Assembly: GCA_921293015.1 (NCBI GenBank)
Contig: OV121088.1
Span: 19,629,645-19,693,644 of the forward strand
Length of the DNA stretch: 64,000 nucleotides
DNA from: Phorcus lineatus
Taxonomy: Eukaryota; Mollusca; Gastropoda; Trochida; Trochidae
Direction of reading: 5' to 3'
The position numbers were made by a program, and so were the translations under genes. Every line of letters starts with the position of its first letter. Within the stretch, counting starts at the first letter, position 1. The notes under the pieces were generated by a model. It ran no database searches. It had not been told where the DNA came from and saw only the letters and a list, made by a program, of their open reading frames with translations. This document shows positions 16,081 through 58,959 of the stretch, one piece after another.

Positions 16081-17026
16081 TAAAAAATATTTTTCAATAC
16101 CGCGATGTATGTATTTTACCTACTTACACCAAAATCCCAAATACAAATACAAGGACCGTTATAACCACGGATACCACACATGCCAGCTACTTTTGGGGAA
16201 AGCGAACCTGCGGGGGATCCCCATCCAATCAAAGCTCGAGAATAGGAGAAGTGAACCCACGGTGGATCTCCTCTCTTCACCCCTTCCACAGGAGTGGACG
16301 GGAATGGTAACATACAGAAGAAAAATAGCACATTGCGAAGATATCAACGTTTTAAAAAGACCACTGGAACAACCTAATGGACAAGGTGAGTATTATCCTT
16401 ATTTACTCTACTATTTGTGTAACCCATTAAACAACCACACACAACAAATTATAATGTTAAATATAAACATTACCTAATTCAAATTCAAATTCTATATAAA
16501 ATTTACTATAAATTAAAATAATCAAACCTATCCAACATTTATTTATAACTTAACCTCTTAATATATATTTTTTTTAAACTTTACTACAATTTTAAATAAT
16601 TAAACCATTCCAAAATCTATTTATAATCTAACCTCTTTATAAAAACAATTTCCAAATTATTTATAACTCATCATTATTAAATACCACAAACCAATTGTTC
16701 CCATACGCTTAAAATCTTCTCTGTCTTTCTATTATAGACAACCACCTATTAAAGGGAGAAAAGGAACTACCTAAAGACAAAGAATAAGTATTATCTCTAC
16801 TTGTTATACCACTTACCACCACTCTCATTTTAAAATAATTATACCAAATAAAAACTTTATTTAAAACTCAATTACTTTATAAAAATTCCAAAAAATAATA
16901 ATTAAACATTAATAACTACCTTAAACCAATTTTCCCCATACACTCAAAATCTTTGATCTTTTTGCAGGTACGACCCATAACACAAAGTGAGACAACCCCC
17001 AATAACCCCCAATATCTATTCATATA
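16081..17026. other. AT-rich non-coding stretch with degenerate repeats
   Basis: Holds no gene I can support. A GC-richer island at 16,190-16,340 (GGGGGATCCCC, GTGGATCTCC) is unexplained. From 16,480 to 16,980 phrases such as CCCATACGCTTAAAATC (near 16,700) and CCCATACACTCAAAATC (near 16,937) recur about 237 bp apart, so it is an old tandem duplication. It forms the left flank of the GGATCC inverted repeat. Confidence 0.5.
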
Positions 17027-17316
17027 CACAGGGTGAATATACCCTGAATCCGTCAGCCGGATCCCTTGCCGGATCCTCCGGATCCTCGCAACAATGGTAT
17101 ACTGGGATCCGGAGCCGGATCCCTCACCGGATCCGGGATCCGGCCGTACACCGCCGGATCCCTTGCCGGATCCCCAGTAGAAACGAATACGGGGATCCGG
17201 AGCCGGATCCCTCACCGGATCCTAGATCCGGACGGACACCACCGGATTCTCTACCGGATCCTAAGTAGATAAGAATAATAGGATCCGGAGACGGATACCA
17301 TACCGGATCCTCTCCT
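17027..17316 (+). repeat. Left GGATCC-rich terminal inverted repeat
   Basis: Begins with a small palindrome (AGGGT GAATAT ACCCT) and then carries about 20 GGATCC/CCGGAT motifs. Internally it is an 88-bp tandem array: AGGATCCGGAG-type starts at 17,104, 17,192 and 17,280. Overlapping ORFs rich in Asp-Pro and Ser-Gly repeats on both strands are artefacts of the hexamer. Confidence 0.9.
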
Positions 17317-26821: not shown

Positions 26822-27010
26822 ATTTATTTACCCTCTGGCATTCATTCCAAATCTTTATCAATTCAGAAACTCTCCTAATTACCATTTTTTTTGGGTACCC
26901 CATATCTTATTCCAAATTTTACTCCTTATATTCGGCTATAACAAGTATGGGCTCCCACGTCGGCGACATCACCAAGAGGTGGAAGCAGACGCATAAACCC
27001 CAACCCAACA
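26822..27010 (+). repeat. Interspersed repeat, copy 1
   Basis: Shares with 30,946-31,138 the sequence TTTATTTACCCT-TGGCATTC, then GGGT-CCCCATA-CTTATTCC, and the GC-rich end GTCGGCGA-ATCACC followed by AGGTGGAAGCAGACGC. Copy 1 ends in CCCAACCCAACAACAACAA, possibly a LINE-type (AAC)n tail. An ORF of 78 codons starting here has no recognisable domain. Confidence 0.68.
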
Positions 27011-27183
27011 ACAACAACCAGTTGTCAGCTTCAGGTATTGAGCAGGTGTCAAACGTGCTGTACAAACACATGCAGGTGGCTTGTAGACAAGTGACCATGT
27101 ATCAGTCTGTTTTGTCAGGACGGTGTCTCTCGTGTCTTGAAACAACAGGATACACTGCTTTACCGCATCCTGTTATCCAATGA

Positions 27184-28088: not shown

Positions 28089-30550
28089 ATAATTGCGCGG
28101 GACTACTTGAAGTCATCAGATTAAATTGACGACACATACACACGTAAAATATTTACTGGTATAGGTATTCCTTATATACATGACGCTCTGTATTGACTAA
28201 CCACCGGAGGTATCTAACCCTTTGGTGGGGTTGGAATACACATCCGCAAAAAAACACCATAATGATTTGGGTGAAGAATTAGATTTGTCTTCCACTGTAA
28301 AACATTAGATTAATTTAAGAACTCTATTATTTGAAAATCTTTCTTTATCGTAATTGTAACTAAAACAAGTTGAACACTTTATTAAAGATATCATTTATAT
28401 TAATTCCTGCAATCAAAACTTTTTGATCACTGAACCAATTTACTACAGATTTCAGATTTTGAGACAATCTCAATTTGAAGTACACTGGCTCAATTTTTAT
28501 CAATTATCTGATTTTTTTCAGATTTTATAAATTGCTTTATTAAATGGAATGAGTTTAATATATTGTTGTTCCCTTCAATTGAAATACCGAATTCATGCGG
28601 CTGTACTGTTGCAAACATGTTTCAATAAAAATAAGCAAAAATGTGCTCATTAATGTTACAACATCCAGTACTTTTTAGATGATAGCAACAATGAAAACGT
28701 GTCCTGATGGGCTACGTTGAAATAAAAGGTCACAATTCGCAATGTCATACTCAAATAATCCTTCCAGTAACTATATCCCCTTAAAATATTATTTCCGAAC
28801 GTAATTTCTCCTACACAGGATAATGTGTTTACTGCTTTGGTACAAGTTCATAATATCAGTTTAACGGCTGGATTCACAAACATTCGTAAAATTTCCTTAG
28901 ACTGAAGAATTCTTAAATCAGCCAAACCATCTTAAGGAACAATACGTTTCATAACTGTAAAAATGAGAAAAGCCGGTCCCATTTCATCAACAGAGACAGA
29001 GAGAACCTATTTCCAGTTCCCAATGATTAAAGGTTAATCAGGGGTGTAGTAACGACTTTCAAAGAGAGAGAGGGGGAGGGGGAGGGGGGGACTAATTAAG
29101 GTACGAGAGGGTTTAGTACAAGTAGGCCCCTACATATTAATTTTATCTCTTGCGCAAAAGGTGTATTAATCCTTGAAATTCCTTATTCTAATTGAAGGCG
29201 ATAAGTATCATTGTACTTATGGAGAAGGAATAGATTTGACAAATTGCACGAACAAGCTTTTCTGCAAAAGCAGCACTATCTTTGCATGTGTAGTTTAACT
29301 ATGCGAATCCATTACCTTCTCTGAAAGATTAGAACGTGTTAAAAGACAAATTGTTGCTAGTGGATTTTGCTTGATTCTTGATAATTTCTTCGATTAGACT
29401 AATACAGAGGATCGGTTTGAGTAACGAGATGTTTGACCTCTTAAGATAGTACATTTGGCATAAGTAAATGTTTATTTGTGAAATTTTGGTTAATAATGAC
29501 ATTAAAATAATTTCCTTCTGCCCCGTTAAAGACGGCTTCGGTATAAAAGTGTTTGGCCATTCTGCCTATAAATTGTTACTTATTCTGTATATATCGTATC
29601 CCCTTTTAGTCAGTTCCTAAACTTTTGTACACCTTTTCTGTTCCTTAATCCTGTATATATATTCCTGTAATCGTCAAAACAAAGTGCTTTATTTGGCTTC
29701 AGGTGAAAATGATTGTTTTATTTAGTTTAAGTCGACTTTACATACCATATTGAAAATAAAATATAAATGCATATGATCCTACTTTAATCGTTAACAATCG
29801 AATTAAAATTTTCAATTTCCTGCCTTACCAAAGGGTAACTTTGATAATTCAGAATTTGTTTGGTAACATAATATATTTCAAGTTTTACGTTATTCATTAT
29901 TATTGTCCTATTATTTTATATTCAAACACTAGTAACCATTTTGAAACTGTATTATAAGAAAAAATAGAAGTATTAAACAGCGTTAACTTTATACTAACTG
30001 CCCTTATATGTAGAGATATAAGATGCATGTTTTTTCTAATGTGCATGTTAAGTTACAGTTCTAAATCCATCTATTGCCGCTTGCCACTTTATTTAAGTTT
30101 CTCTATTTTGTTTTGAAAAATCAGTGAAAGAAAGTTACTGAACGGTAATTGAACACATGCTTCGAATATATGTATGTATATTCTTATTTCATCTGTTGCA
30201 GCAATAAGACACAAATGAGTCTATGTGAAATGTGAATACGCTAACAGGTGTAATGATCAAGTGTGTGCGTTCAAGCGTTACAGTGTATAACATTGAACCT
30301 TACTTCTATAAAATTAAAACAGCCTGTTTAGCAAATTCCCTTCTGATTCTAATTTAAACAAATATTTAAAAGCTACAGGTTAAAACAAACACTTGATATT
30401 AATATATATAATAATGTTAATAGTAAAGTGACAATGTCATTTCAGGAATATGATAGTAGAAGGTAACAAATATACTAGTATGATGTATTACTTTTTTAAT
30501 GAAAATCTTCATACTTTCATATTCATTCATTCTTGCCTACTCTTGCCACC
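28089..30550. other. 2.4 kb with no supported gene; G-rich run
   Basis: Between the CACTA-like element and the right GGATCC repeat. It contains a purine-rich G run at 29,062-29,090 (AGAGAGAGAG then GGGGGAGGGGGAGGGGGGG), which can fold as a quadruplex. No ORF of note. Confidence 0.55.
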
Positions 30551-30840
30551 AGGAGGGGATCCGGTATGGTATCCGTCTCCGGATCCTAGTATTCTTATCT
30601 AATTTGGATCCGGTAGAGAATCCGGTGGTGTCCGTCCGGATCTAGGATCCGGTGAGGGATCCGGCACCGGATCCCTGTATTCTTATCTACTAGGGATCCG
30701 GCAAGGGATCCGGCGGTGTACGGCCGGATCCAGGATCCGGTGAGGGATCCGGCTCGGGATCCCAGTATACCATTGTTGCAAGGATCCGGAGGATCCGGCA
30801 AGGGATCCGGCTAACGGATTCAGGGTATATTCACCCTGTG
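30551..30840 (-). repeat. Right GGATCC-rich terminal inverted repeat
   Basis: Reverse complement of 17,027-17,316 over the full 290 bp with roughly 13 differences by eye. Its outer end is CACCCTGTG and its inner end is AGGAGGGGATCC. Sequences inside the two arms are unrelated. Confidence 0.9.
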
Positions 30841-30945
30841 ATATTAATTTATTTTTTTTATTTTTATTATTTCATATTTAAATATACATATATATTATAT
30901 TTATCTTCATTTAATTTTTTATCCCTCATATTTCAAATTCAAAAT

Positions 30946-31138
30946 TACTTTATTTACCCTTTGGCATTCCTTCAAATTTTTTACCTTTCGAAACTCAAAT
31001 AAAATTCCCTTCTATCCAATTTTTTGGGCTCCCCATACCTTATTCCAAATTTTATCCCTTATACCTTTAATACAACCATGGATGGGCCCCAGGTCGGCGA
31101 TATCACCTAAAGGTGGAAGCAGACGCTGAAACTCCAAT
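30946..31138 (+). repeat. Interspersed repeat, copy 2
   Basis: Second copy of the repeat at 26,822-27,010, in the same orientation. It ends at AGACGCTGAAACTCC directly beside the TTAA target site of the Kolobok-like element and is outside the GGATCC-bounded region. Confidence 0.68.
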
Positions 31139-31383
31139 TTAAAGGGAATAGGAAATATGACCTATTTTGAAGATTAGAAATGTTATTTGAAGTGTATAGT
31201 GACTTATGATGCAAACAAATAATTTTTAACCGACCAGAATAATTAGTAATTGGCATCTAAACTTGATCACCTATAAAAACGTAAACAAAATTCGACCTTT
31301 GACCTAATGACGTCACGAAGGGAATCGTCCCCCATTTGTTTACATAGAGACGAATGGAAGTCGGAAACAGAGGAGTCGGAAAT

Positions 31384-31679
31384 ACCTCGTATATGTGTGT
31401 TAGGTGGCTGTAAACTGTAGTAACATCACACAAGTAAACTTAATGTTTCATGTTTTGCCATGGGATATCGCAAAACAATGGACGAAAATTGTGCAAAGAA
31501 CCCAAACCGACTGGAAATCAGGACCCAGTAGCCTAAGTGGATACAGCTACATTTGTTCAGCACATTTAAACGACGATTCCTACATCAAACCTAATTTTGT
31601 AGCTACAACGTTACGATCGAAACCCAAAAATGAAGCCGAATGCATGTCTCACGGTCTTGCCAACACATGTATGCCATAA
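31384..31679 (+). pseudogene. THAP zinc-finger domain remnant
   Basis: THAP domains are C2CH zinc fingers that bind DNA and sit at the N-terminus of several transposases. The first Cys pair lies in RICVLGGCK (C-x4-C) in one frame, which ends in TAG. The rest continues in another frame: SNITQVNLMFHVLPWD (the conserved Pro), AKQWTKIVQ (the invariant Trp), and YICSAHLNDDSYI (C-x2-H). A frameshift between the two halves, near 31,410, inactivates it. The expected DDE region does not follow; the next kilobase has only short open stretches. The open frame after the shift has no ATG at its start. Confidence 0.75.
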
Positions 31680-31689
31680 TTTAAGAAAC

Positions 31690-33000
31690 TGTTAGCGCAA
31701 TATTGCGAGTGAAAGAACAAAAAATGGCCGAGTAGGCGTTTACGTCGAAGTGACCTAGCGCTCATCGTTTCGGCAGAGGGAGTTTTCAAGGGTGAGTGTT
31801 GATCATGTTAAATACAGTAAATATGTACTGTTATTCTGTAAGTATTTTGTAACTAAATATCAGTTATAATGATTACGAAAAGCAAAATCTAAACAAACGT
31901 CGGCTATTATGACAATTTAACGTGCTCTTGATTATGTGTCGTCCTGTTTTCGATCACTTGAAATTCAGCGTTAGATTTGGGCCCTAGGCGAATTCTTTCA
32001 CACGTGATCAAGAATTGATCACTAAAAATTGTTCCTATATTTTTTCAAGAAGCTACAGACAAGAGGAACTCATGATCATGATGCTGAGGGTACTGCCAAA
32101 CCACAAAAAAAATTGTGATTGATGAGGGCAACACAGCAGACACCAGTATGTTATGGAAGGTGCTTTTTACATCAATCAAGCAGATGGAAGCCAGGTAAAG
32201 GACAAAAATATTCAACTTAATTTGAAACCAAAGAGGAGTAAAGGTTTGTAAAATACAACAATGAAAGCAAAATGACTCCAAGTGTGATTTTAATCTAGTA
32301 AATAGTGTCATTGAGATATTAACATACAAGTTTTAGACAAATGTATAAATTAGATGAAAGATAAAACTGAATACCTTTTATTTAACATTTTTTAATTGTT
32401 AAATATTTTGTATTGTGTGAAAATCACTAAAAAAATTAGTTACATTGTCAGTTCCTCATATTTCAATGTCTTATGAAAATTGATGAATTTCATTTTGTAT
32501 TGCAGGTGTTTCTACTCCAAGGATTGATTCCTAATGAGATACAGAGCCAATGGGTTTTCGGAAAAAACTGTAACAGTACAGTAACAATATTGCCTACTTT
32601 TTTCTAGCATAAGCAAAATAAAATTATTTATTTGTTATACATTAGATCATTAAAAGATTTTTTTATATATTTGGAGGGGGAAATGTTGCCATAGATTTTT
32701 TTTCGAAAAAAAAAGGAATAACAGTTTTTCACCTTGTCATAGACTTTTGTTACTGTTTGCTAGAAAATTGAACTCATGGTACTGGAATGTTTATCTGTCA
32801 TATAAATGCTTGGTATGTAATTTAAATACACCATGAGAATAAACAGAGGAAATTTTTTATGAGTTCAGAATCATTTATTATGTGGGCAGTTTGTTTATAA
32901 TAAGTTTGACCACTGTATAGTTTATTATTATTTGGAATTTGATCTTGTGTTTTCATTACACATAAAAATTGTCAAGAAATAAATAATTCATTTCAGATTT
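31690..33000. other. Non-coding or decayed interior of the Kolobok-like element
   Basis: No domain-like ORF. A minus-strand stretch at 32,515-32,600 (with FFRKPIGSVSH before a stop) might be a third exon of the P2X7-ballast-like gene, but this is weak. Confidence 0.35.
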
Positions 33001-33001
33001 A

Positions 33002-34881
33002 TCTTCTTTTTTGTCACTTTGACTTGCTCATCTGGTTGCTGCCTGAACTGGTATTATGCTGTATCCAGCACATCAGTGTTCACTGTTCAGGCAAACAGCA
33101 TAAAAACTAGGGTGGAGGGTGAGACAGCAGACAGGAGGGTCCCAAGCCCTGCACTTATCCCTGTACTGGTCAACCTCCTGACAACACTGGCTCTCTTTGG
33201 CTGTGGACATCATATTACAATGGTTACACTCTCACCTGAAGAAAAGAATTTGACTATGTGAAGTGATATTATACTTTATAATCCATCCATAAATGATGAG
33301 TAGAGACTTGAGAAAAGTTAAACGTTTGTTTACTCTCCCTCTCCCTCTCGTGTCACCTATTTCCGTTGTATTAAGAAATCAACTGCTGTGCACTTCATAG
33401 ATAGATTGTACATATTTCAAACATTTTAAACTGAACAAACATTTATTCTGGTGTTAATTATATTTAAACATCATTCAAAAAGATGCCACGTTTTACTAAT
33501 AATTTTGGCGTCACTTTTTTAAATTGTATTTGTATTGGGTCAAATAATGACAACATAACCCATGCGACAGGTAATATTTTACTGAATTTCAAACACAAAT
33601 GGTGACTTAAACAAAACACCATTCAAACTAAACTTGTTACATGTTTAAAAAGTTCACATGCTCATTGAATTACTACATTGTCCTTGATATAAATATTTAT
33701 ATATATAATAATATTAATATATAATATATAATATATAAATATTTCGGGTGAAGGAAAAAGAATTTAAGCCTAGTAAGTGTTCATGTAGATTTCTTCTTAA
33801 CAGCCTATATCTTGTATATGATATAACATCAATTTCTATAGATGCGATCCAAGCAAAGTTTGATGTTAAAATGATGCATCATTTATTTTTCACTGTAAAA
33901 TTCTACAAATGCCAAAATGTATTTAGGAAATAACCCTTCTGCATTAGCACAGATTTAAAAATTGATCAGGGACTCTTCTCTGGTTATATATTTGACAATA
34001 AGAATCATGTCAGCCTGGGGAAGCAACCATTAATATAATTTGGTGACATATATATTTTGAACAAATGATTGATAAAAAAAAATTTCCTTGAAGTTGTATT
34101 AAGTGAACAGCATGAAATAGCACTTGATTTTCATTAGTGAAGTTAACAGTTGGGTAGATTTATTGAATATTGATCGTGTCTATGCAAAACAACTGATCAA
34201 CAAATTAAGTGCTATCTAGCCGGGACCTGTTTATGTCAAGCGAGCAAGATTGTCATATGTAAATAGTACTAAATACTACTACTACGAAATCAGGTGACAC
34301 GTGAATAAAGGTTACTCGTTTGCTATTTTAGATAACTTTGAATGAGTGTATTTTATAACGAAACGGTCACATATAAAGATGAAAACAAGATCAGCTATAA
34401 TAGAAATCGAGGATATTATATTATCCTACATTTGACAGAATAATTCAGAAAAGAATATGGTCAATCTTCATACGATCGATGGCCAAGGGAAGTAACTCCT
34501 AACAATATTATTTTCATTTCAAGCAACTTGTTAAATAATCTACTTAACAGATATTGTTATTAATTAAATCCCTTTTCAAATTGAATTTGAATATAGCTTA
34601 GACATAAAAAACAACAACAAGGCTTTCATTACTATGAAATAACTTGAAAATTACCATGCAAGCAGTGTTCAGTCGGTCATGGTCGTCAGAGCCGTTGCCG
34701 TCAGAACTCGAGGAGGAATCCCTCACTGGCTCGAATCTATACGGATTCTGCGGTTCGGTCGAACTTGCCGTCAATAAATTTTTGTCCTATCTGACTCATC
34801 TCCATTGTCAGATGAGTCGGAAGGCCACGGGGAGCCATCACTGTGGTCACTCAGTTGGTACTCTTTACGTGTTGACGCCAT
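33002..34881 (-). pseudogene. P2X7 C-terminal 'ballast'-domain-like gene, broken
   Basis: Two exons can be read. Exon 1 (34,881 to about 34,655) starts ATG, is Ser/Asp-rich, and after a frame change carries NPYRFEPVRDSSSS, then a GTAATT donor. Exon 2 starts at 33,235 after a TTTTCTTCAG acceptor. It reads ECNHCNMMSTAKESQCCQE, then CRAWDPPVCCLTLHPSF and YAVCLNS, and after another frame change DVLDTA and YQFRQQ. Spaced Cys residues (C-x2-C, CC-E, a further Cys, then AVCLN) match the zinc-binding intracellular domain of P2X7 receptors, which also occurs without any channel in many invertebrate proteins. A TGA sits just after the acceptor where a Trp is usual, and a stop precedes YQF. No ion-channel segments are present. 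The 3' end is uncertain. Confidence 0.7.
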
Positions 34882-35151
34882 GTTCGTGTTCCCTTCATGA
34901 CGTCACATTATCACGTGACATAAAACTTGTCCTTTTTCTAGGTCAGTCGATTTCAGCTACTTTACGTAGCCTGTAACTTTTAAATGCATGGTCCCAAAAT
35001 TTTTGTTTTCAATGGAATTTAATATCATTACGTTTATGAGTAAGGTGTTACATGTGGAAAGTGTAATTTCAACATGATTTCCTAAACCCTTTAACAACAA
35101 CAACAACAGTTCAGTCACTCGCATCTCATGCTCTGAGGTGACAACACCTAG

Positions 35152-35324
35152 TGTTACAATATCATTATTTATATTCAATTTAAATAATGCTCCCGTAAAG
35201 TCCCAATGAACGGTCCCGACCGGACATACGGGCAACTGTAAAAACATGGCTGAAGAGTAAACTGATGTTGCACTCGCCCTCGCTGTTTGTTCTCTGATTT
35301 GAGGAGCTACAAGTTATTGAAACA
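35152..35324 (+). repeat. Gypsy 5' LTR (173 bp)
   Basis: TGTTACAATATC to TTATTGAAACA. It differs from the 3' LTR only at its 12th base (C against A) and near its 49th (G against A). Confidence 0.95.
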
Positions 35325-35338
35325 TGGTGGCAGCGGTG
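35325..35338 (+). other. Gypsy primer-binding site candidate
   Basis: TGGTGGCAGCGGTG begins directly after the 5' LTR, where minus-strand synthesis is primed by a tRNA 3' end. The tRNA identity is not assigned. Confidence 0.7.
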
Positions 35339-35364
35339 AAAACCGTTTGATTGGATTGGATATA

Positions 35365-35426
35365 TAAAGGTTACTCGTTTGCTATTTTAGATATTTAAAT
35401 TGAATATAAATAATGATATTGTAACA
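35365..35426 (+). repeat. Patchwork replacing gag: copied 28 bp plus inverted LTR end
   Basis: 35,365-35,392 is identical to 34,316-34,343 inside the Kolobok-like element. 35,393-35,426 is the exact reverse complement of the first 34 bp of the LTR (35,152-35,185). The two patches abut. Gag and the protease start are missing. Confidence 0.9.
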
Positions 35427-38400
35427 TCTCCCTTCCAAAGAAGTACTTGCCTTCAAAAACAAAAATCACGAAAACACGAAATGTGTTAAAAATGTGGAAT
35501 GGATCACAAGTGTGTCCTGATGGCACGGCCAGGCTCAAAATAAGAAATCCTGCTAATCTCAAGCTCTACAGCGTTGAGTTTGTGGTTGTAAGTGATCCAG
35601 ATGTCGGTCTAACACCCCTGCTAGGTGCAAAAGCAGTACAGCAAATGAACATTTTGACAGTGAATGCATCCAATTTCAAACAAGTCAGTGCTCTCAAACC
35701 AGGAAAGCATACGACAGAAGAGGATAAACCCCCACAGAGTGCACAAAAGATTGTGGACAAACATGCAGATTTGTTTGAAGGTGAACTTGGCACCTTGCCA
35801 GGAAAAGTTCACTTATATGTTGACAAAGATGTCAAACCGTCAGTTTCACACAGAAACAGAGTTCCGATTGCTTTACGTGAACACCTCAAGTCAGAGCTAG
35901 AGAGACTTACACAATCTGGTGTGATTGTACCGGTTGATGAACCGACAGAATGGGTTAGCTCCCTTGTGATTGCGCCCAAAAAATCAGGTGGTATACGGAT
36001 ATGTCTTGATCCTAAACCCCTGAATCTGGCTCTGCAAAGAGAACATTATGAACTGTCAACAATTGAAGAAGTCTTACCTGATCTTACCAATGCCAAAGTA
36101 TTTAGCACATGTGACCTATCTGCAGGGTTTTGGCACCTCGAACTTGACCATGAGTCAAGTATACTCTGTACTTTTGGTACACCATTTGGTAGATTTAGGT
36201 GGACTCGACTACCATTTGGATTGAGTGTCTCTCCAGAAATATTCCAAAAACGGCTCAATGAAGCATTAGAAGGTCTTACTGGTGTGCGGTGTATAGTGGA
36301 TGATATTCTCATCTTTGGTAAAGGAGATGACAAAGAAACAGCACAACTTGATCATGATAGAAACCTGAGTGAATTGTTCCAAAGATGCGAAAAGCTTGGG
36401 ATCAAGTTGAAACGAGAGAAACTGCGTCTGTGCAGAGAGGAAGTTGCCTTTTTGGGGCATGTGATGACTGACCAAGGTTTGAAATGTGATCCGCAGAAGA
36501 TAAAAGCTGTTCTAGACATGCCAGCACCAAAGAGCGTAGAAGAGGTACAGCGGTTCTCTGGTTTTGTGAACTACCTGTCAAGATATCTGCCAGGACTATC
36601 AGGCCTCATGCAGCCAATCCGACGCCTCACACACAGTGATGTTGAGTGGAAATGGACCACTGAACAAGAGGATGCCTTCATGAAAGTGAAGAAGTTGGTA
36701 ACAGAAGCACCCGTTTTGGCATACTATAACAAAGCTGAAGAATTGACTTTGCAAAGTGATGCGAGTTCAACAGGTCTTGGTGCTGTGCTGTTGCAAAATG
36801 AAAAACCAGTTGCGTATGCAAGTAGAGCTCTATCTCCAGCTGAAACCAGGTATGCACAGATTGAAAAGGAACTTCTATCTGTTGTGTTTGGGCTTCAGAA
36901 ATTTCATACCTACACCTTTGGAAGGAAGGTCAAAGTTGAAAATGATCACAAGCCCCTGGAAGCAATAACCAGCAAACCACTTCACAGTGCACCACGGAGG
37001 CTACAGTCAATGATTCTGGCAACGCAGAAGTATGACGCAGAAATCAAATACAAGAAAGGGGAAGATGTGGTTCTGTCAGACACTTTATCAAGAGCATACC
37101 TTCAGACAGTTGAAGAAGAGAAAACAGATACATTCAGTCAGGTAAACATGGCAAAATATCTTCCAATCACAGAAACAAGGCTTAAAGAGATCAGGGAACA
37201 TACTGAGAGGGATGAAACTCTGCAGAAGCTGAAGGAAGTTGTCCTCAGTGGTTGGCCTGACTTAAAAGAATCATTGCCATTTGATTTGTACCCTTACTTC
37301 AATTTTAAGGATGAAATCACACTTCAAAATGGTCTTGTGTTCAGAGGAGAAAGATTGATAATTCCTCAGAGTCTTCGAGCTACGATGAAAACAAAGATCC
37401 ACTCTTCGCATTTGGGGATAGAAGGCTGTCTGCGACGGGCACGAGAAAGCCTATATTGGCCCCACATGTCTGACGACATAAAGCAGTATATCAGCTCTTG
37501 TGAAACATGTTGCAAGTTCCAGGCAGCACAGCAGAGAGAGACGCTTCTGCCAACAGAAATGCCAGAGAGGCCATGGCAAAAAGTAGCAACAGATTTGTTC
37601 ACTCTTGATGGGAGAGAATATCTCATCACAGTGGATTACTATAGTAATTTCTGGGAGGTAGACTGTCTTTCAGATACAAAGTCAAGTACAGTCATACACA
37701 AGTTGAAAGCCCATTTTGCTAGATATGGGATCCCAGACCAAATAGTAAGTGACAATGGACCTCAGTTTGTTTCTGAAGAATTCCACAAGTTTATTGTGGA
37801 CTGGGAAGTAGAGCACCTGACATCGAGTCCTTATAATAGCCAGGCTAATGGGAAGGCTGAGTCAGCTGTAAAGACGGCTAAAAGACTAATGAGGAAGGCG
37901 AAAAGTAGTGGCAATGACCAGTACATGGCCATCCTGGACTACAGGAACACACCGACACAGGGACTTGGGTCGAGTCCAGTACAGAGGTTAATGAACAGGA
38001 GATCTAAAACGCTGATACCTACCAGTGAGACACTATTAAAACCACGAACGGTGGTTGAATGCAGTGAGAAAGATAAACTCCTACAGAAACAGAAATTGCA
38101 GAAAGATAGGTTTGATCAGCATGCGAAGGACTTAAAACCGCTTGTTGAAGGTGACGCTGTGAGACTGAAACCATTCAGTCTTAACGACAAGGTTTGGAAA
38201 CGTGGGACTGTCATAAGGAGACTTGATGAACGAAGTTACGAGATTGACTCACCCCACGGCACTCTACGGCGAAATAGGGTTCACTTGAAGAAGACTGCAG
38301 AACAGAACTTTGGGCACAATACTTCTCTTGACCAAACATCCTCAGATCAGGCACAAGCAACAATGCCTAGAAGTGATGACCAATCAAGCCAGACAACTCC

Positions 38401-38542
38401 GAGAAAACTTACACAACGAAGTGAGATGTCCCCGATGAGAGCTGTAGAGCCGGAGTCGGTGAACGTGCAAGTGACACCTACCCTGACAAGAAGTGGGCGT
38501 ATTGTGAAGCCTCCTTCCCATCTGAGAGACTATACAGTATAG
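35417..38542 (+). CDS. Gypsy pol: protease end, RT, RNase H, integrase
   Basis: An open frame of about 1,030 codons. It begins inside the protease (end motif PLLGAKAVQQM) and has no proper start; the first ATG is near 35,492. RT: SSLVIAPKKSGGIRICLD, FSTCDLSAGFWHLEL with the first catalytic Asp, RLPFGLSVSPEIFQ, and CIVDDILIFG (IVDD in place of the usual YVDD). RNase H: LQSDASSTGLGAVLLQ, with a conserved LSDTLSRA later. Integrase: zinc site H-x4-H near SSHLGIEG and C-x2-C in SCETCCKF; core VATDLFTLDG (Asp), IVSDNGPQFVSEEF (Asp), NSQANGKAESAVK (Glu). The tail has VWKRGTVIRRLDERSYEI and no chromodomain. The architecture resembles K02A2.6-like/Mag-type Gypsy elements. No stops or frameshifts are visible. 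Confidence 0.95.
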   Translation, partial: YCNISLPKKYLPSKTKITKTRNVLKMWNGSQVCPDGTARLKIRNPANLKLYSVEFVVVSDPDVGLTPLLGAKAVQQMNILTVNASNFKQVSALKPGKHTTEEDKPPQSAQKIVDKHADLFEGELGTLPGKVHLYVDKDVKPSVSHRNRVPIALREHLKSELERLTQSGVIVPVDEPTEWVSSLVIAPKKSGGIRICLDPKPLNLALQREHYELSTIEEVLPDLTNAKVFSTCDLSAGFWHLELDHESSILCTFGTPFGRFRWTRLPFGLSVSPEIFQKRLNEALEGLTGVRCIVDDILIFGKGDDKETAQLDHDRNLSELFQRCEKLGIKLKREKLRLCREEVAFLGHVMTDQGLKCDPQKIKAVLDMPAPKSVEEVQRFSGFVNYLSRYLPGLSGLMQPIRRLTHSDVEWKWTTEQEDAFMKVKKLVTEAPVLAYYNKAEELTLQSDASSTGLGAVLLQNEKPVAYASRALSPAETRYAQIEKELLSVVFGLQKFHTYTFGRKVKVENDHKPLEAITSKPLHSAPRRLQSMILATQKYDAEIKYKKGEDVVLSDTLSRAYLQTVEEEKTDTFSQVNMAKYLPITETRLKEIREHTERDETLQKLKEVVLSGWPDLKESLPFDLYPYFNFKDEITLQNGLVFRGERLIIPQSLRATMKTKIHSSHLGIEGCLRRARESLYWPHMSDDIKQYISSCETCCKFQAAQQRETLLPTEMPERPWQKVATDLFTLDGREYLITVDYYSNFWEVDCLSDTKSSTVIHKLKAHFARYGIPDQIVSDNGPQFVSEEFHKFIVDWEVEHLTSSPYNSQANGKAESAVKTAKRLMRKAKSSGNDQYMAILDYRNTPTQGLGSSPVQRLMNRRSKTLIPTSETLLKPRTVVECSEKDKLLQKQKLQKDRFDQHAKDLKPLVEGDAVRLKPFSLNDKVWKRGTVIRRLDERSYEIDSPHGTLRRNRVHLKKTAEQNFGHNTSLDQTSSDQAQATMPRSDDQSSQTTPRKLTQRSEMSPMRAVEPESVNVQVTPTLTRSGRIVKPPSHLRDYTV

Positions 38543-38570
38543 CAGCAAATTGTCGTTAATATGTTCAGTA

Positions 38571-38720
38571 ATTTGTTAATTGTAGGGAATGCATAAAGGC
38601 CGGGATGGTCATGGACTTTAATTTGATTCACCTACTTAAAGGGTATTTTTTATGATTTGTTAATTGTAGGGAATGCATAAAGGCCGAGATGGTCATGGAC
38701 TTTAATTTGATTCACCTACA
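38571..38720 (+). repeat. 84-bp duplication before the Gypsy polypurine tract
   Basis: ATTTGTTAATTGTAGGGAATG starts at 38,571 and again at 38,655. The copies run to TTTGATTCACCTAC with one difference (GGGATGG against GAGATGG). Copy 1 is followed by TTAAAGGG and copy 2 by the true polypurine tract. Confidence 0.92.
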
Positions 38721-38731
38721 AAAAGGGGAGA
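38719..38731 (+). other. Gypsy polypurine tract
   Basis: CAAAAAGGGGAGA precedes the 3' LTR directly. Confidence 0.88.
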
Positions 38732-38904
38732 TGTTACAATATAATTATTTATATTCAATTTAAATAATGCTCCCGTAAAATCCCAATGAACGGTCCCGAC
38801 CGGACATACGGGCAACTGTAAAAACATGGCTGAAGAGTAAACTGATGTTGCACTCGCCCTCGCTGTTTGTTCTCTGATTTGAGGAGCTACAAGTTATTGA
38901 AACA
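38732..38904 (+). repeat. Gypsy 3' LTR (173 bp)
   Basis: TGTTACAATATA to TTGAAACA. 171 of 173 bases equal the 5' LTR. The CCTAG TSD follows. Confidence 0.95.
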
Positions 38905-39293: not shown

Positions 39294-42200
39294 ATGGCGG
39301 CACCTTCGACTGGCAAAGTAGCGAAGCTGACAGATCTTCCGGCGGATTTTTCTGTCAGTTTTCTTCGTAATGCTGATGTTTCTTTGAAAAGTAAACAGAC
39401 GGGGTTTAAGTATTTTAGCGAGAGTTTTTTTCACTCAGTAAGTACGTTCAGGAGCCAAGAAACCGAGGAATGCATTTCTGTGAGTGCGCGGTGCTACAGG
39501 AGTCAACGGAAGACTGAAGTTCCACATATACTCAACATGGACGTCAAACCATCTGAGATATTCTATGCACACTGTTCTTGTCAAGCTGGGTAAGAAGATT
39601 TCTTTTATTTCAATGTGTTTTCAGCCGCATCAAAGTAATTGAATCTACTGCAGTAATTATTGTCTCAGTATCATATCTTCATTATTGAACAGTACCCAGG
39701 TGGGGTATCTTCACGTCTGTCGAAATAAGCTCGGCTACAAATACACGAATCTTAAATAACTGATTGGGGAACATTTTATATATATAGCGTTTGGCAGTTA
39801 CTTTTTATATCAATGATCATTTTGATTTTTTTATGAGCAAATTAACTCGGCCATAACACCCTCGTGTTACCTGTTTCCGTGGTATTGATAAATACACTTC
39901 TATAAGAGTGTAACTGCCGATTCTGACAAACATCCTGATAATCATAAATAACATATTTCCCCACCCTTTAATGTCAAATAAACAGTTCTTTAATTATTTG
40001 GTTAAATCATTTTAACATTTTGAAAACATATGCCAATATTTACTTATTTACATGGGGTCCTTGTTTCCATGGTATTTCTATAAAATATGGCAAAGCAACC
40101 CCTGCCACAGCTTAAAATTTTACTGTTTTTCTATCATACTTTGCAATACTTTTATAATTAACAGTAAGGTGATTCAGGATAATAATTATACATGTTTTTC
40201 TCTTATAATAAAACAAATCAGTAATCAATAGGAAACTTCTTGGAAATCATTATGATATGGATGCATAATAAAATAATTAATGAATGAATTTTTTTGACAG
40301 TGTGGTTGGATCTTGCGCTCACATAGTGAGACTGATCATAGCTCTACAACAGTGACAGCTGATGGGTTTCACAGAGGTACCATCTCAGCTGTCCTGTACC
40401 TCCCTACCCGAGCAGTGGAGCGTGCCCAGGGGTCGCAAGATTCAGCCAGTTGATGTTCCTCACCTCATCTTTGTCAACCCGAAACCAGACCGGAAGAAAT
40501 GACCAATACAGAACACGCTCACCGATTGCAGGTATGAAATTTATTTTATTTACATGTTTGAAGTTTTTGTACAGTTTTATAAGATCTTGTTCAGTTTGAT
40601 AGGACTACTGAAATGGACACAAGACATAATGAATTCAAAACACCTGACAGACTTTCTCATGGTTGGCATTTACAATATTACAAATAATTTGGTCATATCC
40701 AATTTTATCACATTTGCTTACTTGAGTTGAAGGAAATGAACACAAAGAGTTTTTTCTAACATCTAATAATTTGTCCAGTGTAATTAAAAGTACTTGCAAA
40801 TTTGAATTTACATTTAAAAGCTACAGGGTTTGGGCTGATATTTTTTAAATGCTGGAAAATCTGTATCTGGTATAAAAAATATTATCAAATTTTTTTGATT
40901 AGGAAAATAAAAGTGAAAAAGGAGGACCTGGAACACCTTCAGGCCCTGAAGAACTACCCCCTAGCCTACCTGGTGTCCAGTCCGCAAACAACTCTGGACA
41001 CTCATGTTGGACCTGTACCCTTGGGTAGCGGGTTATCAACACATGTAAGTACTTTGATCAATTAGACTTTAAAAACATTCTTACTTTCTTTTTATACAAG
41101 GTGGCATGAAATTTGTGAGGAAGGAACAAACAAACCATATTTGATCAACAGATGACATCAATGATAAAGGTATACGGCAACAAAGAGCCTTGAGTGAAAA
41201 AGGTTTCTGGATTTTGATCTCAGTACAGTCAACAATAATAAATGTTGTTGGAAATTCAGATTTATAATCTTCAGGCATATTTTCAAACAAAACATCTCTA
41301 CTGGGCCAGATGGAAACTTCTCCAAATCTCAGAAACATGTAATTAATCCAAGAATTGAAAATGACACCAATTACTTGTTGGGTTAAACCAAAGCGTAGAG
41401 CCAAATCTTGCAAGTCAAAATTATTTCTTAATCTACAAAGAGTAAAAAATAACTGATTTTTTAGAGAAACATTCTTAATTTGGGACAAATGACCTTTCCC
41501 AATATATGACGATGGACAACTATCATAACATGGGACTAAAAACTTAAATATTGCTAGAAACATTTCCTTTGGGTATCCTGTATAATAATGGATCAAACTG
41601 TCCACAGTAAAAGTGACAGTTTTAATTTTCTTTAGATGTTCACATTCAGCTTTCTTCTCTTCTAAAAGCCTTGAAGTTTCGACTTGTTCCAGGGTATTTT
41701 TGGATAGTTCTCTCTTCATCATCTCATTCTCCACAGCAAGACCCATGAGATCCATCGGCTCCACCCCTGAAATTAATTAAGAAAAACGATGCATTGGTTT
41801 TATTTTTAATCAATTTTTTGAAAATATCAGTACTTATTATGAATATTATTATTTCAGGCAACATTCTTTGAACCAGCTGACCTACAACCAGTTGTTACCC
41901 AGTGTGGTAATTTAGTTTTTCCACGCGCTTCACAGCTGACAACTGATAATTCAACATCTATGGGCAAAAGTATAAGCCAAGAACAGTGTGAAGCCATTGA
42001 GGAGAAGACCAGGGATCAAGCTCAGAGTCCTGTATGGAGGGAGTAAGGTAAACATCGACTGACTGCCTCAATGTTTGGAACTATTTTAAAACGTAGATCC
42101 ATAACTGATAAATTTTTAAATACAATTTACATCACCCCAAACTTCTTATGGGACAAACAATGAGAAAATTGCTATCGAATTGTACTTAAAGAAAACAGGT

Positions 42201-42596
42201 TACCATGTCCATGATTGTGGTTTGATAGTTAATCCCAATTTTCCATTTTTAGGAGCATCCCCGGATGGGAAAGTTTGTGACAATAATTCTATAACAGGAT
42301 TAAATGAAATTAAATGCCCATTTAGTGCACGTGATATGTTGATCAAAGATGCTACAATTCTGCCAAACTTTTGTTTGAAAGAAAATATTGATAAAGAACT
42401 CTGCTTAAAAACAGATCACCAATATTATTATCAGATACAGGGTCAACTTTTAACCTCAGGTGCACCATTTTGTGACTTTGTTGTTTATACAAGAAAGGAA
42501 ATTTTCATTGAAAGAATACTCCCAAACCATGATTTTATGCAGCAGTTGTTAAATGACTTAACTAAATTTTATTGTGACTACATGCAACCTTATTAG
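39294..42596 (+). pseudogene. SWIM zinc finger and YqaJ exonuclease protein of ISL2EU
   Basis: Four exons with consistent phases: 39,294-39,589, 40,301-40,531, 40,903-41,044 and 41,858-42,596 (donors GTAAGA, GTATGA, GTAAGT; acceptors TTTGACAG, TTGATTAG, TATTTCAG). The SWIM finger spans exons 1-2: HCSCQAG, then VVGSCAHIVRLIIAL (C-x-C, C-x-H). Exon 4 is the YqaJ fold of the lambda-exonuclease type: HRLTASMFG, then GASPDGKVCDNN, LNEIKCPFSARD (E-x-K), YYYQIQGQLL and CDFVVYTRKE. These supply the D...E-x-K catalytic set. Breaks: TGA near 40,352 and 40,499 in exon 2, TAA at 42,044, and a frameshift near 42,130-42,160. The nuclease half from about 42,165 is open. The start is the first ATG in the open exon, 84 bp inside the terminus. 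Confidence 0.9.
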
Positions 42597-44177
42597 AACA
42601 GCCAAGTTTGAAGCCACACTGAATATCATGCCTTATATTTTCTAGTTCTTTTACCCCTATTTTTTGTAGCAAATGTTGTCTGATAAAAAAAATACTTTGA
42701 TTCAGAAAAAGTAATTTTATTTCAGGACAAAAGTCATTATCTATTTCAGCAACCGGTTAGTTCCTTTCATATCACCAAAAATTATAATTTGATCTGTGAA
42801 CGTAAACTTATAAACAACAATGTTGTTTTTTCACCTTCTAGTTTTGACACAAAAACAAGTTATTTTTGGTACAAATTAATTCAGTCCAACTCTGTTAACA
42901 TTTAGTATCCTATTATAGTTTTGATGATTGGAGTTGCTTAATTTTTTCCAGGCAATTATCATTTATTATAAAATCAGTCCATCACTTACAGTTTGCTGTA
43001 GTCTGAGTTCCACAGGAGTTTGTCCTATCTTCAGCAGCCTCTCCTCCCTCATGGTTAGTTGGGATTATGTCATCACTTGAAAAGAATTTAAAATATGACC
43101 ATCTATAATTTCTATTTCAAAATCTTATATCAGATATTTGACTTAAGTTATGAATATAATTACTGATTATAACATTGGGTGGATTCTTAGAAAAAAATAC
43201 ACACCAGTCGATGGGTCAACTTAGGTTTCAGCTTTCTAGGGATATTTTCTCGAGAAAATAAAGTCTTAAGGATCCATTTCTACAACAAATGTGTCTGCAG
43301 ACTAGACTCAGTTAATTAAAGAAAGAATGTCAAGAAAGAAAGAACAAGTTTAAATTATTTATGTATGTATAGTTTGAATGTTTTTAGTCTTTTTAAAAAA
43401 AGTTTTAAGACAAAGAGTGCAATCACATAAACTAACCTTTGTTCAAGATATGAATTAGCCATAGATGTATCTGTGAATGTCCTTTTCTTTGGGGCCTTGC
43501 GGGTTAGAGGAATTCTGTTTGAGGGATCAGCAGGCAAGGGATCCGGAAACTCTTCACTCGGGAATTTATTTACAAAGTGCTGAAGAAAAATATGCAAAAA
43601 TAACAAATGCAATTTTCGATTTGTTTGATGTGAGTTATACAGTATAGATTAATGTGTATAGATTTCGAAATAAATTTAAGGCTATTTACATTTAATTGTC
43701 ACATCACTTAAGGGTCAAAGTGGTAAGGGAACACAATATTCATTCAAGGAGGAATAAGATACAATTTGTGTTTAGCATGAACCCTGCGAACAGTCAGTTA
43801 TGTTGGAAAAGATCTACCTGATAAAAAATTCTCACTATGTAAACAAACAATTAATTAATATGGCCACCTCAAATAGTCAATATAACGACAATTATTAGTA
43901 TCGGCATATGAAACTTTTTCAGTTGAAAACTAAGAGTACGTGTATGAAAGCTTTTATATTAAATCAAAATTATTACCTTCGAACAGACATATCTATTGCT
44001 GTTTATTCTGGATGGATTCAACTGACTGTGTGGCCTGCCACATAGCTTGATCCAACGGAGGCATTTTTCTGGGTTGCTTTTAGGTTTTGGGAAGGGTATA
44101 AACATAATACCGCCTTCCAAGCGCTCAGGATATCGGTCGTCGCTCTTACACAGACCGTGACTACAACGTTTCACCAT
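41081..44177 (-). pseudogene. THAP-HTH-DDE transposase of ISL2EU, catalytic core deleted
   Basis: Four exons with matching phases: 44,177-43,977, 43,579-43,437, 43,075-42,990 and 41,766-41,081. Exon 1 holds the THAP finger (KRCSHGLCK, then MFIPFPKPKS, CLRWIKLCG and YVCSK); exon 2 completes C-x2-H with HF. Exon 4 starts with a coiled-coil-like stretch. It continues with the helix-turn-helix (SLKNQLFFTLCRLRNN, DLALRFGLTQQVIG) and the first DDE_4 Asp in FIIVDCTEIKIQKP. The frame then jumps to the protein's C-terminus (DQIWFVCSFLTNFMPP), so the second Asp, the Glu and roughly 130 residues are missing. It could bind DNA in principle but not cut it. The first ATG after the open upstream stretch is taken as the start. 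Confidence 0.9.
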
Positions 44178-44351
44178 AACTTTCGCGGGAACCAAACTAC
44201 AAAGTATAAAAACTGACCGTAGGCGTTTCCTTCGACAAGTTTGTTTGTCTAAGGAAGAGAGTTCCCGCGAGAATATGCGCGCGCAGCTATGACGTGTGTC
44301 ATGCTGATTGGTCGACTAGATCATGTGACTATTTCTTGCGGAGGGGTCAAT

Positions 44352-54729: not shown

Positions 54730-56238
54730 CGAACACAAATAAAACAATTTAATTTACTAGTACTTATCTAAGTTTCATGCTTATCTTTTCAGATAATTTG
54801 CATGCTGAAGTCGATGTCTGCTTTACCTTATATTTTTTTAATTACAAAATTTAGATAGATATTGAACACATTTATTAAATCCATAAGCAATTTAAAATAA
54901 TCAACAGTTAACAAAGCAAAAACAAGCCTATGGTGTACATAGGTTATCATTAAGCTTTGCACTACACAACTCACACAGTGAAAACATATGTTAGACAAAC
55001 ATGGGTCAGATATTATCTGTTCATGAAAATTAAATCATGTGATTTCTTGTACCACAAAAGTATGTGTAGAGACATGTATCATGTTACAAAATTGTCCCTT
55101 AGGGGAAACACAATTAATCTTAAGTCACAAGCAATATAGTTAGGATAAGATTTCTACATACAGAACATGTTCTTTAATATGTAGGTGTAAATAAATATAT
55201 ACACCTGTTCTCTCAATTACATCTTGTATCTACTATTTCAGACCATTTTTCAGTTTCAATTGCAATTAATATATTAATCAAATGGCAGGATTTATTTACT
55301 CAACTCACTGATATACTGTGCAAACAAATGTGAAAGACCTGAGAATAATTCACATAATAAAATGACATGGTTGAAGTAAATAATCATTTTGAATTAGTCT
55401 TGGCATAATTACACATGGCTTTGAGTACATAGGAAAAAATTGACAAATCTCGTCAAATACCTTGTATAACTCATCGTGTGAAGTAGAAATTAAGAAATTA
55501 ATATAAATATATAACTTTCTGCTTGACAAGATGCGATATACATGATATTCAACGAGAAATGTCTAATTATGTTTCCCAAATGTAGTAAATGACTTAACAC
55601 TATGAACGAAGTTGCTTGTCAAAGGCGACCATATCAAGTATGTCTTAAAGATCGGGTGAAATGCCCTATGGTCGATTTCGGAATTCGCTAAAAGGGATTA
55701 CAATTTGACGTGGACTCAACTTTAAATTTCTGAAATCGGCCGCTAAACAACATAAATACGGCTTTGTAATTAAACTGCCTAATTACGACCGGCGAGCAGA
55801 ACCTGAAAGGCCCTGTGGTCACTGAAGCGTGAATCTTTCGTGACGTGCTAGTTGGCATATCATCATACGCTCGTTATGTAAAACAACACTAGCCGATAGT
55901 AAATCTCGCAGTTAAACCGTCGGTTATACCTACTAAACGTTATCCAAACAACTCAAACCTTAAAGGAATCTAGTGTTTAATTCATTGTCTGGAAATTTCT
56001 ATTTTTGCAAGCGCAAGACCCTGATTAATTTCGATGCTGTGTGCACTTTCCTACGGAATGTTTTTAAAAGTCACGACCCTGCGCCATTTTGTCATAGTTA
56101 TAAGATTGCGCTATAACGCGTGAGATCCCGGAAGTATTTCTTACATGAACTATGCTCACTTATTGGACATTATATTGAGGGATGCACCGGCATCCTTACT
56201 CTCATAAATATATAACCTTTATTAAGTATTAACGCGTA
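54730..56238. other. Intron/intergenic, no supported gene
   Basis: Within the large gap between exons 1 and 2 of the SWIM/YqaJ gene. No recognisable ORF. A possible TTAA-bounded end near 55,962 was considered without finding a partner. Confidence 0.4.
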
Positions 56239-56424
56239 ATGTACTCCAGCGATTCAGAAAGTGAGATATCATTATCTATGGAATGTGTCTCATCATGTTC
56301 AGAATCGCTAATTTCAATTGACGGGGCCGATACTTTTCCTTACTTATATGAGCCAAATGACAGTTCGAGTGGCATAAGAGACGACAAGCAATCAAAACGG
56401 AGACAGATTGAACAACATCGACTG
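56239..56424 (+). CDS. First exon of a P2X7-ballast-like protein
   Basis: ATG, then an acidic Ser-rich stretch, then DTFPYLYEPNDSSSG, a basic run (KQSKRRQIEQHR) and a GTATGA donor at 56,425. This matches exon 1 of the broken gene at 34,881-34,655, which has NPYRFEPVRDSSSS. The P-Y-x-(F/Y)-E-P motif followed by a Ser tract is what I know from the N-termini of channel-less P2X7-like proteins. No Cys-rich second exon was found downstream to 58,280, so the gene is partial or decayed. It lies on the strand opposite to the surrounding SWIM/YqaJ gene, inside its intron. Confidence 0.45.
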
Positions 56425-58270: not shown

Positions 58271-58959
58271 TATCATTATTTCAAGATATTATAATTATGC
58301 TCAGGTTAACGTTAACAACCTGAAATACTGGTACATACCCAACAGTACAGGGACAGTAAGCCGAACACGGGTCCCCAGTGACTGTGTCGAGGACCAGGTG
58401 AAGAATCTTCACGTCGTCTACCTGGGTGCTCTGGGAGGGGTTGCACTTTGCCTGGATGCAGAAGAAATCCGGATAGTGTGGGTGTCTTGTTACGAGAACT
58501 GAATGGATATTATCTTTCAACTGCAAAGCACGAGAAAGTTTATACTTCTTTATAGCACTTGAGTCTAAAATATGGCATCCAATGACAATGTTCTCATCGA
58601 TGTCAGGGAGTGAAGAAATGTCGGGTGACCACGACTTCAGGCGGAGCAGGTTCAAGGGGGAAAGTTTCCTTAGCGATGTGATCTGCTCTTCTGAAAGGCG
58701 TTCTTCTCCTATGGTCAGGAAACCGTTGAGAGGGGAAACAGAACCAGTGGTACTGAGACCTAACAAATGGCACAGGAAAATTACACGAGCAGATTTGGGC
58801 AAAGTATTTGAGATATGGTGTCTTAAACACAATGCCTTAAGTTCATTTGCACTTAGCTGATTTACTTCAGTCTTGAGCTCTGGTTTAGACTCGCTTGACA
58901 TAATACAGAAAGCAATAGCAAATATTTGCAACTGAACCATTGAATGAAATCAGTATATA

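Follow-up and report, generated by a model that had tools for sequence, protein, structure and literature searches.

The segment at 31143-35090 of the window that we analysed, 64,000 nucleotides (64 kb) of contig OV121088.1 of the gastropod Phorcus lineatus, is very likely what remains of a Kol0-like Kolobok transposon, a dead copy from which the transposase has probably been deleted. The set of features observed comprises inverted ends, a pair of TTAA sites, a THAP remnant and a remnant of a gene of the KolX type. According to Kojima and Bao (2022, PMC9587614), Kolobok elements of the Kol0 lineage encode KolX as their second protein; this protein has the ballast fold, matches the C-terminus of P2X7 and gave rise to the tail of that channel.

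The TTAA at 31139-31142 recurs at 35091-35094, as in the target site duplication of Kolobok elements, and directly inside the two copies lie the terminal inverted repeats, AGGGAATAGGAAAT at 31143-31156 (+ strand) and AGGGTTTAGGAAAT (reverse complement) at 35077-35090 (- strand), which match at 12 of 14 bases. The element thereby takes the form 5'-AG...CT-3', that is, the 5'-RR...YY-3' form of the Kolobok superfamily. Frog Kolobok elements likewise have a TTAA target, and their T2-MITEs are reported to carry an AGGRR motif (PMC6004289); the left end here (AGGGA) fits this motif and the right end (AGGGT) departs from it at the fifth base. When a pattern covering both ends was searched with a tolerance of two mismatches, it recovered within the window just the two ends of the element. 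As a control we collected TTAA pairs 0.5-8 kb apart from 30 simulated windows with the dinucleotide make-up of the real one, which gave 11 equally strong pairs in total, one of them with at least five G/C in the repeat. The real window holds one further pair of that strength, 35395/38763 (14/14), whose AT-rich match is accounted for by the LTR of the neighbouring retroelement. A stricter screen at 15/17 bases did not list the pair 31143/35090. Taken alone, the inverted ends are weak evidence, modestly above chance; since the simulated windows yield comparable TTAA pairs, the ends count only when combined with the content of the element.

The left flank of the element is repeated at 26823-27003, and the similarity stops at 31137, two bases short of the TTAA. 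When the joined flanks were aligned to the repeat at 26823-27023, the alignment crossed the junction and past the TTAA covered just 17 AAC-rich bases, a right-flank match that was not extended by adding the sequence behind a nested retroelement; the repeat has no TTAA at the corresponding place. As an empty-site comparison this is suggestive, not proof. No second copy of the element was found within the window. The surroundings contain several other mobile sequences. After a gap of 57 bases the element is followed on the right by a Gypsy-type retroelement (35152-38904) that has CCTAG on both sides and LTRs of 173 bases (171/173 identical) and seems to lack the beginning of its coding part. Among the 120 matches listed for the Gypsy protein, the best shows 65 % identity. 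Inside the retroelement, at 35364-35426, a 30-base exact copy of the Kolobok interior (34305-34334) is joined to 35 bases that repeat the LTR start (35152-35186) exactly in inverted orientation, an arrangement resembling templated filler at the site of a deletion. Repeats rich in GGATCCGG at 30551-30848 and 17018-17316 are 95 % identical and lie in opposite orientation. Farther to the right, remnants of HTH_Tnp_4 (-), YqaJ (+) and THAP (-) lie within 3.2 kb at 41084-44315, the THAP at 43962-44315, a set like that of an ISL2EU-type element.

Within the left part of the element a decayed THAP zinc finger can be recognized at 31277-31676 on the + strand, where the earlier note, made from the sequence alone, had placed a THAP remnant. 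In a Pfam scan the open reading frame 31404-31676 matches THAP (PF05485) with E 7.2e-7 and 30.3 bits against a cut-off of 23.9. The first THAP cysteines (CVLGGC), which begin about 250 bases inside the left end, are in the frame of 31277-31417, a piece with no Pfam match on its own, and the remainder is in the frame of 31404-31676. The frame changes between CVLGGC and the rest, and the finger is a remnant. Kolobok transposases usually contain DDE, THAP and H2CH domains (PMC6004289), and the THAP DNA-binding domain is present here in decayed form. Neither a DDE core nor an H2CH finger was found by Pfam in the scanned fragments of the element, a screen that a decayed Kolobok core could escape. 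Ten further fragments, searched on both strands, gave no Pfam match better than E 0.024, the matches all being sub-cut-off and unrelated, and no piggyBac model was matched in the scans of the element's fragments.

The opposite part of the element encodes the remnant of a KolX-type gene on the - strand. To fetch relatives, a database was searched with a composed probe sequence, and this returned 131 proteins with E <=0.001 among 137 candidates; the profile was built from 120 of the 131, with the probe itself excluded, and the probe's own Pfam and PDB matches were not counted as evidence on the window. The database's own annotation gives PF20478 for 112 of the 120 matches listed, and the named relatives among the 120 include molluscs, an annelid, a nemertean, echinoderms, hemichordates, cnidarians, a sponge, ticks, amphioxus and fishes. 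Among the 2761 six-frame segments of the window, this profile matched 33076-33231 (-) with 50.0 bits (E 5.3e-14), the runner-up segment scoring 7.5 bits and the best segments of 20 simulated windows 4.4-8.7 bits. The segment aligns gap-free to the CGNC...ESVCC...CITEHPGF..VCLN core, and tblastn matches reach E 8.5e-13, the strongest being to a protein of the scallop Mizuhopecten yessoensis. It would represent the second exon, with the zinc-cysteine part of the ballast domain. The exon continues in another frame at 32997-33083 (-) with an in-frame stop (VLDTA*YQFRQQ), a stretch matched by tblastn and, with E 7.7e-5, by a sub-profile chosen for it and run on the six frames of the element. A decayed first exon lies at 34655-34881 (-), with the motif PYRFEP, then DRLNT before a GT, and one internal frame change; its best tblastn match, at 34676-34744 and covering PYRFEP, has E 2.3e-4, and the gene starts some 210 bases inward of the right end. 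An intron apparently splits the gene, the exon ends given here being our reading of these matches. The Cys-rich gene of P2X7 pattern reading toward the THAP finger, as proposed in the earlier note, is thus recovered by the profile at 33076-33231, and of the two - strand regions put forward there for a profile search the second-exon region stands out clearly, whereas the first-exon piece scores 6.9 bits with the whole profile, within the simulated range.

A profile of 18 relatives matches P2X7 in four distinct solved sequences, at residues 471/472-594, with E 4.6e-13 to 5.2e-10. The P2RX7_C model (PF20478), present in the library, gave no match in Pfam scans to the pieces from the window or to their read-through; the similarity is shown solely by the profile of relatives. 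P2X7 was not matched in PDB searches with the same pieces and read-through, and one PDB match (E 0.36) and one Pfam match (E 0.38) obtained from them were set aside as chance. A database search with the read-through returned two candidates, none with E <=0.01, and among viral contigs 26 pattern matches were found and 0 confirmed. The gene carries several lesions that the earlier note had not mentioned, namely the frame change in the first exon, a stop (TGA) directly before 33076-33231, at the position of the first zinc cysteine of the relatives, a shift of frame behind VCLN and the stop in VLDTA*. No match to the C-terminal half, which includes the third cysteine cluster, was obtained in any of the six frames of the element. 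By our own count against the clusters that Rump et al. (2020, PMC7016195) describe, five of the seven zinc cysteines are kept, one is replaced by a stop and one is gone with the C-terminal half; a KolX protein with ballast-type cysteines, as in the Kol0 lineage, is recognizable from the profile match at E 5.3e-14. In the account of Rump et al. the ballast domain (ZCD) is found across animals, including oyster and limpet, and a tick protein combines the ZCD with a domain that the paper spells TAHP and that is presumably THAP; the string "transpos" is absent from the main text of that paper.

The region before the first zinc cysteine also offers a hint of a conserved intron. CxCx2-3C, taken as a simple pattern, occurs in 68 of the 120 relatives listed and gives no match in the other 52, and the residue preceding it is W in 44 of the 68, R in 17 and another residue in 7. 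The 17 cases of R are as expected if the corresponding gene models read from an intron that ends in AG|G. A further trace of the family may be present near 56 kb. At 56245-56424 (+) we noticed a possible remnant of a KolX first exon, SSDSESEISLSM...PYLYEPNDSSS, followed in another frame by DRLNNIDW, which ends before a GT as expected for exon 1 of a KolX-type gene. Its tblastn matches, in two adjoining frames, have E 0.001 and 0.003, numerically weak values given that chance-looking matches of the window reach E 0.007, and by profile it scores 7.5 bits, inside the simulated range; its assignment as a possible second exon 1 follows from the order of the motifs. No second exon was found nearby. 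With the TTAA at 55960 tried as the left end of this remnant, the best of the right ends compared with it matched at 8/14, and none of the TTAA sites at 55400-56235, paired with sites up to 64000, reached 10/14. About 2 kb away, an open frame of 222 aa at 58284-58949 (-) has no Pfam match at E <=0.01.

On this basis the active parent of the element would have carried two genes, one for a THAP-DDE transposase starting at one end and one for KolX pointing inward from the opposite end. Through its THAP finger the transposase would attach to the ends and carry out cut-and-paste insertion into TTAA, with duplication of that site, and KolX might serve the transposase complex as a zinc-binding helper. 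This copy has decayed, and any movement of it would depend on enzymes that another copy provides.

Three other explanations of the locus deserve consideration. It could hold a domesticated, Nanor-like host gene derived from KolX that has decayed here, with the TTAA ends present by chance. Nanor-like host genes are known, as Rump et al. record (PMC7016195), and chance ends of this quality do arise, as the 11 pairs from the 30 simulated windows attest; yet the THAP remnant, inside the same TTAA pair and reading toward the KolX gene, and the end of the flank similarity at the left TTAA speak against it, and the possible second exon-1 remnant at 56245-56424 is of the kind left by a mobile family, so that we consider this origin improbable. 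A chance juxtaposition of two unrelated remnants, with THAP and KolX coming from different transposons and lying between fortuitous TTAA ends, has in its favour the richness of the window in transposons and the other THAP remnant at 43962-44315. It is very improbable, as the inward orientation of the two remnants and their positions, about 210 and 250 bases from the ends, fit a single element.

A piggyBac-type element would also account for the TTAA, and Kojima and Bao (PMC9587614) mention a few piggyBac families that encode a KolX-like protein. According to the same source, those families are without most of the seven cysteines, five of which we count here, and the 5'-RR/YY-3' ends are given as a difference from piggyBac; together with the THAP remnant this leaves such an origin hardly credible. 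We therefore retain the Kol0-like Kolobok element as the preferred interpretation. A wider scenario, which we consider unlikely, may be sketched around it: in an invertebrate Kolobok lineage KolX would be convergent to the transposase, a conserved intron would interrupt the codon of the tryptophan that precedes the first zinc cysteine, and transposase-less copies would have spread as carriers of KolX, providing stepping stones for fusions like P2X7.

The proposal of the earlier note that the segment is a Kolobok-like transposon with a ballast-type second protein fits the sequence and agrees with what Kojima and Bao report (PMC9587614), and its suggestion that such a transposon may have been the source of the P2X7 tail accords with their account of KolX. 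Since the link between KolX and P2X7 was published in 2022 (PMC9587614), this idea is not new. The locus adds a further decayed case, in which a single TTAA pair encloses remnants of both THAP and KolX and raw sequence again shows a P2X7-ballast-type protein within a DNA transposon, the general point having been made in that publication.

Among known systems, the element shares with KolobokP the Kolobok superfamily and the TTAA, but differs in having no terminal direct repeats of ~450 or 660 bp (for 30500-35700, 16 families of direct repeats were listed, none of this kind) and no His-Me nuclease in the fragments scanned by Pfam. It resembles the cytoplasmic ballast domain of P2X7 (PF20478) in that cysteine clusters 1 and 2 follow in the same order at roughly the same spacing, whereas there is no channel, cluster 3 was not found and a stop replaces the first cysteine. 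Compared with the Kol0 lineage (Kolobok-1_XT), this copy is broken, with no DDE core found and a KolX lacking its C-terminal half, but it has the TTAA, the RR/YY ends, the THAP remnant and a KolX-type protein with the ballast-type cysteines in common with that lineage.
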